Below, one piece after another: positions 53,747-55,440 of a stretch of DNA of 64,000 bases. The translations under genes and the position numbers were made by a program. The first letter of the stretch is position 1; each line of letters starts with the position of its first letter. The DNA is from an uncultured Gemmatimonadota bacterium (GTDB lineage Bacteria; Gemmatimonadota; Gemmatimonadetes; Palauibacterales; Palauibacteraceae). The stretch is taken from the NCBI GenBank assembly GCA_913043255.1, contig CAJWLK010000004.1, forward strand, positions 1 through 64,000. Direction: 5' to 3'. The notes under the pieces were generated by a model. That model saw only the letters and a program-made list of their open reading frames with translations. It had not been told where the DNA came from and did no database searches.

Positions 53747-53783
53747 AAAAGGGCCGCTCGGGTTTCCCGAGTGGCCCTTTTTG
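53747..53783 (+). terminator. Rho-independent terminator after the cold-shock gene
   Basis: AAAAGGGCC-G-CTCGGG, loop TTT, CCCGAG-T-GGCCCTTTTT: a long stem with a G-T pair, flanked by A and T tracts. Confidence 0.93.
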
Positions 53784-53829: not shown

Positions 53830-54315
53830 TTGTTTCAGGAGGAATTTCGCGTTGGATATAGAAGAACGAATGTGATTGAGTGGATACGGGGTATTGGCCT
53901 GTTGTTCATCTCCCTTGTACACGTAGGCTGTGCGGGAAACGGGACTGGCTTGGATGAATTCGGACAACCCCTTACGCCTGAAGGACTTCCCCCGCTAGAG
54001 GCAACCCTGAGTTCAATCCAGGCAAATATTCTTACCGCGATATGCACTCAGTGCCATACCGGCGTGACACCTCCGTTAGGTTTAGCGTTAAATGCCGGCA
54101 TTTCTCGTCAAAATCTAGTCGGGGTGTCGAGCGTTGGGGTTCCAGAAGTCCAACGCATCAAGCCAGGAAACCCCGATGAGAGCTATATGGTCTGGAAAAT
54201 AGAAGGCCGATCGGGCATTGCGGGTGAACGTATGCCATTAGGATTGGAACCATTAAGGCCAGAAGAGATTGCTGCGATTCGAGGGTGGATTCAAGATGGC
54301 GCCCTAGATAATTAA
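53830..54315 (+). CDS. Monohaem c-type cytochrome lipoprotein
   Basis: 161 residues. An N-terminal hydrophobic segment (about 17-33) ends in HVGC (Cys34), a likely lipobox. The mature part has one haem site CTQCH (residues 72-76), a following THTG-like loop, NLVGVSS, KPGNPDESYMVWKIEG and the probable axial methionine in GERMPLG (Met135), ending in IAAIRGWIQDGALDN. This resembles the cytochrome domains often tied to outer-membrane or planctomycete-type cytochrome proteins. The gene after it carries another CxxCH. The exact start (53830 or an in-frame GTG near 53872) is uncertain. It probably transfers electrons in the periplasm. Confidence 0.82.
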   Translation: MFQEEFRVGYRRTNVIEWIRGIGLLFISLVHVGCAGNGTGLDEFGQPLTPEGLPPLEATLSSIQANILTAICTQCHTGVTPPLGLALNAGISRQNLVGVSSVGVPEVQRIKPGNPDESYMVWKIEGRSGIAGERMPLGLEPLRPEEIAAIRGWIQDGALDN

Positions 54316-54327
54316 AGTGAGAATCAG

Positions 54328-55440
54328 ATGCCCATAGTACAGTTTTTTCGTCTGGTGCCCGTTATCATCTGGCTGGTGGCCTTCACACCATCTGGCGGTT
54401 CGGCTTCTTCTGTGGATTTAAGACTAGAGGTTGTTGATGAACCGTACATGTCGATTTCTACCGGTCTGCGATGCTCGCAATGCCATGTGAACCGGACTGG
54501 AGGGGGGGCGCGTAACGATTTCGGTAGCAGGTTTGCCCAAACTCGATTGCCGCTCACCAACTTTACTTATGTGAATAGGAACGTGACCTCGTTTCTATCA
54601 TGGGGAGCGAATTTTCGGATGCGCGGGTCAGGGACGGTGAGTGACAGCAACGCGCCGACCGACATAGACATTCTTGAAGAGAGCCTACAACTCGAGGCGC
54701 GGGTGATACCCGATGTATTGGCTCTTTATGTTGACCAAATAGTTGGTCCCTCCGGTCTTAGGACACGAGAGGCGTTTGCGCTTCTAGAGACCCTCCCACT
54801 GAACGGCTACGTCAAAGCTGGGAGATTTATGTTGCCATATGGGTTGCGATTGGCTGATGATCAGGCCTTCATCCGGGAACGTACTCGTTTTAATCATCAA
54901 ACCCCTGACGAAGGTGTTGAGGTTGGGATAGAGCCGGGGAAACTCTCACTGTTCACCTCTTTCACAAATGGACCCCAACTGGCGGAGGGGTCCGATAGTG
55001 GGAAGCAAATTACAACGACAGCTGCACTCATCTATCGTCGGTTCCGAGTGGGAGCCTCTGCCTCTCGCAATAATGCCCCATTGGGGAAGAGAGACGTTGC
55101 CGGAGCGTTTGGAGGATTCAACGTCGGACGATTCACTTTTTTAGGTGAGTTAGACTATATATTCGACAAGCCCAATGATGGATTAGAGGTTAGGCAGCTT
55201 GCGGGATACGTTGAAGGCGACTTCCTGGCAACGCGGGGCTTCAATCTAAAGGCAACCTACGGATATCTTGATCCAAGACGTCAGATCGGTGAGAATGAAC
55301 GAGTGAGGGCTCGGTTTGGATTAGAAATGTTCCCGATCCAATTTCTGCAGTTCTCAATTTTCTACACACTTCTGCAAGATATTCCGCAAGCGACGACCGA
55401 CCTTGATCGCTTAAGTTTGGATTTCCACGTGTTTTTCTAG
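54328..55440 (+). CDS. Putative fused cytochrome-porin (Cyc2-like outer-membrane protein)
   Basis: 370 residues. A signal peptide (about residues 1-27) is followed at once by a haem-attachment site CSQCH (49-53) in LRCSQCHVNRTGGG, then NDFGSRFAQTRLPL, and after that about 300 residues of alternating amphipathic strands that end FHVFF, an outer-membrane beta-barrel signature. One N-terminal haem plugged into a barrel is the architecture of Cyc2-type iron oxidases. No distal methionine is evident. It starts 12 bases after the cytochrome lipoprotein stop, so the two are very likely one transcript. It could alternatively be a porin whose CxxCH binds a metal. Confidence 0.7.
   Translation: MPIVQFFRLVPVIIWLVAFTPSGGSASSVDLRLEVVDEPYMSISTGLRCSQCHVNRTGGGARNDFGSRFAQTRLPLTNFTYVNRNVTSFLSWGANFRMRGSGTVSDSNAPTDIDILEESLQLEARVIPDVLALYVDQIVGPSGLRTREAFALLETLPLNGYVKAGRFMLPYGLRLADDQAFIRERTRFNHQTPDEGVEVGIEPGKLSLFTSFTNGPQLAEGSDSGKQITTTAALIYRRFRVGASASRNNAPLGKRDVAGAFGGFNVGRFTFLGELDYIFDKPNDGLEVRQLAGYVEGDFLATRGFNLKATYGYLDPRRQIGENERVRARFGLEMFPIQFLQFSIFYTLLQDIPQATTDLDRLSLDFHVFF

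Follow-up and report, generated by a model that had tools for sequence, protein, structure and literature searches.

Within the window, a 64-kb stretch of DNA taken here at its full length, two adjacent genes encode proteins with the haem-attachment motif CxxCH, a small c-type cytochrome lipoprotein and an outer-membrane barrel protein, here called the haem-porin. This arrangement raises the question of whether the two form a route for electrons across the outer membrane, and how such a route would relate to Cyc2, the porin-cytochrome of iron oxidizers. Among the plausible coding ORFs of at least 90 amino acids in the window, only these two carry CxxCH; the remaining matches are short ORFs without other support, and the 64 kb contain no multihaem cytochrome gene.

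The gene pair and its conserved linkage

The lipoprotein stop codon (54315) and the haem-porin ATG are separated by 12 bases on the same strand (Table 1). In the haem-porin, CSQCH at residues 49–53 is followed by VNRTGGGARNDFG, and the last residue is F. The coordinates, residues and spacing given for both genes in an earlier note on this DNA agree with these readings, save for the start of the lipoprotein, which is probably the GTG at 53872 rather than the TTG at 53830, since relatives have about 20 residues ahead of the lipobox Cys. The lipobox itself, HVGC, is non-canonical. Positions 53838–53880 hold a good Shine-Dalgarno sequence (AGGAGG), and, after it, a tiny ORF (LDIEERM) with a stop codon that runs into this GTG; translational coupling to the lipoprotein is possible. 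The GC content of the pair (0.50–0.51) lies slightly below that of the window (0.53).

Table 1. Positions of the gene pair, its parts and the preceding terminator in the window.
Feature	Position	Strand	Remarks
Strong intrinsic terminator closing upstream cspA	53747..53781	+	16-bp stem, T tail
Monohaem c-type cytochrome lipoprotein	53830..54315	+	161-aa ORF, TTG start 53830, CTQCH at residues 72–76; PSCyt1-like, weak
Probable lipoprotein signal peptide	53872..53931	+	Ends at Cys of LVHVGC; predicted from sequence and from the Cys at the equal place in relatives
Haem-porin: signal peptide, haem segment and 16-strand outer-membrane beta-barrel	54328..55440	+	370 aa, ATG 54328
Haem segment P39–G66 (conserved core)	54442..54525	+	P-x9-CSQCH-V-N-x2-GGG-x-R-x3-G
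16 predicted beta-strands (residues 90–369), C-terminal Phe	54595..55437	+	AlphaFold2; strands include H367

Because a strong terminator follows the upstream cspA, the pair probably forms its own transcription unit. A TlpA-like thioredoxin lipoprotein nearby had been suggested by the earlier note to serve haem-protein maturation. This link was rejected, as the TlpA gene belongs to a separate unit, parted from the pair by cspA and the terminator, and no TlpA gene was recognized beside the haem-porin relatives whose neighborhoods were read.

The pairing recurs well beyond this genome. Using an HMM built from five sequences of the lipoprotein family (window lipoprotein E=1.7e-64), the partner gene was found in 13 of the phylum's 14 loci, each time directly upstream of the haem-porin and in the same orientation (window, L007, L030–L032, L034–L041), L033 being the lone exception. 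Apart from L030, the gaps between the two genes measure 3–60 nt across the phylum loci. The closest Myxococcota relatives also have the lipoprotein gene ahead of the haem-porin; it carries the motif CAQPCH in L120–L123, and its tail lies upstream at the contig edge of L004. The dihaem porins described below adjoin or overlap haem proteins of the lipoprotein's general type in varied orientation (L128–L132). Judged by this conserved gene order, the pairing is genuine, in line with the functional coupling that the earlier note had proposed. The haem motif of the lipoprotein varies within the family, reading CxxCH, CX3CH (CAQPCH) or CX4CH (CAFSGCH; L007, L030–L041, L120–L123).

A conserved haem segment before a predicted 16-strand barrel

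Loss of CxxCH in close homologues, which the earlier note had named as an outcome that would speak against its reading, was not seen: the motif is invariant in alignments of both the close (17/17) and the wider relatives (41/41). The columns P39, C49, C52, H53, G58–G60, G66, G165, G172 and G196 never vary across the 41 sequences, which makes the haem segment the most conserved part of the haem-porin; R62, L74, G93, R97, R183, S244 and G331 are near-invariant, and N55 and R62 are also invariant in the alignment of the 17 close relatives. Identity to the window protein drops to 19–58% among the 41 relatives, while CxxCH-x4-GGG stays invariant throughout.

With the 41-sequence alignment, AlphaFold2 predicts 16 strands (pLDDT 85.5, pTM 0.82) and an ordered haem segment (pLDDT about 75–87 for residues 41–80) with short helices at residues 39–45, 49–52 and 64–73. 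The run with 17 sequences likewise gave 16 strands but left the haem segment disordered. One N-terminal haem motif before a single outer-membrane barrel, as the earlier note had described, is thus borne out by the models, and the strand number falls within the 14–18 that it had anticipated. Foldseek matched the models to 16-strand porins with a probability of 1.00 (Omp32, PorB, OmpT; OprP with a TM-score of 0.63), and OprO was also among the matches. OprO and OprP are the porin templates to which Cyc2 was also matched (PMC8406198). By analogy with the Cyc2 model, the haem segment would lie in the barrel lumen. Searches with the haem-porin matched no family in Pfam and NCBIfam and no sequence in the PDB.

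This overall fold, being that of general porins, would also suit an ordinary porin in which CxxCH had arisen by chance. Such a coincidence was rejected on the conservation in both alignments; the motif moreover sits inside the most conserved segment and is accompanied by a conserved partner cytochrome, so that an ordinary porin is extremely improbable.

Beyond CxxCH, no Met or His is strictly conserved in the 41 sequences as a second haem ligand. H367, three residues before the C-terminal residue and present in 36 of the 41, could be a candidate sixth ligand because the alternation of the strand could point it into the lumen at the periplasmic end. A single haem of this kind would also be compatible with a sensor or catalyst at the pore mouth, for example in the chemistry of NO, H2O2 or sulfide; the lipoprotein would then serve it as redox partner, and YceI and Rieske genes near some relatives point the same way. 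The existence of dihaem porin variants and the repeated linkage to several electron carriers are better suited to a wire, however, and we regard a sensor or catalyst as improbable. YceI-like genes were seen at or near the divergent haem-porins of L133, L135, L042 and L005 (the last by eye only), and the Rieske gene near that of L135.

Relation to Cyc2 and distribution

Published Cyc2 sequences are defined by AxPxFAR[QK][TY] upstream of CxxCH and by PxL four residues after it (Keffer, 2021, PMC8406198). Neither motif occurs in any of the 17 aligned members; the window protein has EPYMSISTG in place of the first and VNRTGGG after CxxCH, where GGG is invariant instead of PxL. On account of these missing motifs, the haem-porin is not filed as Cyc2, although it has a single CxxCH in the mature N-terminus and a 16-strand porin domain, according to both AlphaFold2 models and Foldseek, and with 370 residues is just longer than the FeGenie filter for Cyc2 (at least 365).

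A home-made profile of 22 sequences was built from Cyc2 homologues gathered by the published motif from the window's class, in which 41 of 295 genomes contain Cyc2-motif sites, mostly of the FARKY type; most of the loci that were read look like barrel-length proteins. In hhalign, the whole haem-porin matches this profile with P=98.4 and the haem segment with P=97.0, as opposed to controls of 22.1 (CBB3-type, three sequences only) and 5.0 (lipoprotein). The barrel matches with P=91.8 (monohaem members) or 92.0 (all members), against 1.3 and 0.5 for reversed Cyc2 and 0.2 for DUF3570; on this scale, the barrels of two Cyc2 subgroups match one another at 94.9. As the matches of both parts far exceed the controls, the haem-porin family is probably distantly homologous to Cyc2. 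Homology of the barrels is moderately supported, because the match to the window clade is gone when the small Cyc2 subgroup profiles are used (P 0.7–1.8). Dihaem porins alone gave no match to Cyc2 barrels.

A divergent Cyc2 from within the three published clusters would share the P-x9-CxxCH spacing, the 16 strands and a length above the 365-residue limit, and the relative L027 reads PRFAARTG, which is close to PxFAR[QK][TY]. Set against this are the motifs missing from every aligned member, the three-residue GGG insertion and the reach of the Cyc2 profile, which finds no hit in the genome of the window at E<=1 and, in the Myxococcota haem-porins, aligns with no more than some 38 residues at the N-terminus (E 1e-4 to 0.012). 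Membership in one of these clusters therefore seems improbable. Of the Cyc2-like build proposed in the earlier note, a distant relation to Cyc2 stands on the profile matches, whereas the protein falls outside Cyc2 as published. The further suggestion of a possibly undescribed branch is likewise supported; the motif P-x9-CxxCH-x4-GGG-x-R-x3-G differs from that of Cyc2. Nor are the two proteins alternatives to one another, since the haem-porin carriers G035 and G066 also have strong Cyc2 hits and G322 has two.

The window's phylum is Gemmatimonadota, to judge by gene content. When 395 of its genomes were searched with a five-sequence profile, 15 proved to carry the haem-porin, one of them as a divergent relative (L042); in the window's genus it was found only in this genome (17 genomes searched). 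A weak match in G033 (34% over 76 aa, three stops) was set aside. Among 237 Myxococcota genomes, the number with matches at E<=1e-5 is 73; many of these matches are distant forms, and they include a dihaem-porin clade. In the tree, the window haem-porin (P0001) is placed with L031 and L036, from genomes of two other families (f6 and f3), with a support of 99/94 and apart from L007 of its own order. This departure from kinship makes patchy inheritance or transfer likely as an explanation of the sequence tree; a plasmid search found no relative. The dihaem porins of the Myxococcota (L100–L109, L112, L114, L115) carry two CxxCH motifs before the same barrel and form a group of their own (98/96). 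Their pattern is C..CH-x-x-P...CTLDC..CHV-x-x-x-GGG, with the first motif in CxxCHxxP..W and the second in CxxCHVxxxGGG. The window protein would lie within a wider undescribed group of one- and two-haem porins, probably a distant sister of Cyc2. No description of the family was found in the open-access papers searched, whose silence does not prove novelty.

Proposed role and comparison with known systems

The case for an electron conduit rests mainly on the electron carriers that repeatedly neighbor the haem-porin. In L031, the order is a four-domain cupredoxin lipoprotein (Copper-bind 1.8e-17, SoxE 2e-13), a dihaem cytochrome c, the lipoprotein, the haem-porin, a CydA-like protein and a cytochrome c; L036 has a two-domain cupredoxin, a dihaem cytochrome c, the lipoprotein and the haem-porin, and L126 a cupredoxin, the haem-porin, a dihaem cytochrome c and a protein with five CxxCH motifs that weakly resembles MtrC/F. 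L120–L123 share a conserved cluster that has the look of an entire island for electron transfer, comprising a nine-haem cytochrome with FG-GAP-like repeats, a CX4CH lipoprotein (not seen in L121), a DUF3570 barrel, the lipoprotein, the haem-porin and a dihaem cytochrome c. Another haem-porin is preceded, at a distance of about 1.1 kb, by a 1371-residue protein in which the cytochrome domain of the lipoprotein type is repeated five times, each time with CxxCH (L125:2237-6352).

The motif, the barrel prediction, the pairing and the operon partners can be read from sequence, and together they lead us to consider it probable that the haem-porin is a new branch of haem-plugged porins working like Cyc2. 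With comparable confidence, the pair is taken to be an outer-membrane electron conduit of two monohaem proteins. The N-terminal segment, with covalently bound c-haem, would probably plug the periplasmic mouth of the 16-strand porin, and the lipoprotein cytochrome would sit beside it at a membrane face as an electron relay that links the porin haem with soluble carriers, which in close relatives would be the dihaem cytochrome c and the cupredoxin lipoprotein of the same operon. The most likely donor would be a small soluble reductant entering the pore, as in the model proposed for Cyc2 with Fe(II), and the electrons would then pass on to an aerobic terminal oxidase. For the Cyc2 of Mariprofundus, a potential of 208 mV is reported (PMC8406198). 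As to the substrate, the dehydrogenase of proline-catabolism type that follows the porin in five loci says nothing on iron and in this respect weighs against a Cyc2-like reading. By eye, these genes (L030, L032, L037, L038, L040) encode an aldehyde dehydrogenase resembling 1-pyrroline-5-carboxylate dehydrogenase.

The same conduit might also run in reverse, drawing electrons out of the respiratory chain and delivering them to an acceptor outside the cell such as Fe(III), Mn(IV) or humics, as in Mtr and Pcc systems. Some Myxococcota relatives adjoin a cytochrome with nine haems or a protein weakly similar to MtrC/F, both typical parts of outward transfer; yet the closest relatives have a cupredoxin, which is more typical of high-potential inward routes, and the genome of the window is that of an aerobe, which makes export unlikely. 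Two haem-copper oxidases and cytochromes c encoded in this genome could receive electrons from an inward conduit. The window locus has only the last two genes of the four-gene operon and lacks those for the cupredoxin and the dihaem cytochrome. A search of the genome with the L031 cupredoxin found no match. A dihaem relative (36% over 188 aa) is present on another contig, in a cluster with CydA-like, cytochrome c and COX genes, and possibly stands in for the missing operon gene. Contig C5 of the same genome has one cluster (L152:2084-12710) in which several cytochromes c lie together with a Radical-SAM/PCP_red protein, a CydA-like protein and a haem-copper oxidase; a further member is a dihaem cytochrome whose fusion partner is a haem domain of the ethylbenzene-dehydrogenase type.

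More tentatively, one- and two-haem porins with their haem lipoproteins may constitute a large undescribed superfamily and a third general outer-membrane electron route besides Cyc2 and the MtrAB type. If so, this route would occur across the window's phylum and the Myxococcota, in lineages not known as iron oxidizers. Cyc2 serves as a marker gene for microbial iron oxidation. Search rules built on its FAR motif and PxL overlook the haem-porin family, and if haem-porins carry electrons over the outer membrane, extracellular electron exchange is wider than current surveys show, and the one- and two-haem porins offer a natural series for testing the minimum number of haems needed to cross the membrane.

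Compared with known systems, the haem-porin shares with the Fe(II) oxidases Cyc2 and Cyt572 a predicted 16-strand porin preceded by a single c-haem motif. Its conserved Pro also stands at the same distance from CxxCH as in Cyc2 (P-x9-C), and the FG further on is likewise shared, though shifted by the GGG insertion after the haem; the haem-porin differs in this insertion, a shorter barrel, the fixed lipoprotein cytochrome partner and the dihaem sister group. The lipoprotein in turn resembles Planctomycete cytochrome C (PSCyt1, PF07635) weakly, with E=0.064 and 14.3 bits against a gathering cut-off of 22, but is small and has relatives in which the haem motif varies. In Acidithiobacillus ferrooxidans, electrons take a Cyc2-Cyc1-rusticyanin pathway. 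The dihaem cytochrome c and the cupredoxin encoded alongside the haem-porin in L031, L036 and L126 resemble this pathway, as putative counterparts of its carriers, whereas the extra haem lipoprotein, the lack of acidophile signs and a window locus with the last two genes only set the present system apart. MtrAB, PioAB/MtoAB and Pcc similarly combine a haem protein with an outer-membrane barrel, and some haem-porin relatives adjoin multihaem cytochromes. The 26-strand barrel with a separate multihaem cytochrome by which MtrB, PioB and MtoB are recognized is nevertheless a different build: in MtrAB-type systems, the multihaem cytochrome is threaded through the barrel, whereas in the haem-porin one haem motif is fused to a barrel of 16 strands.
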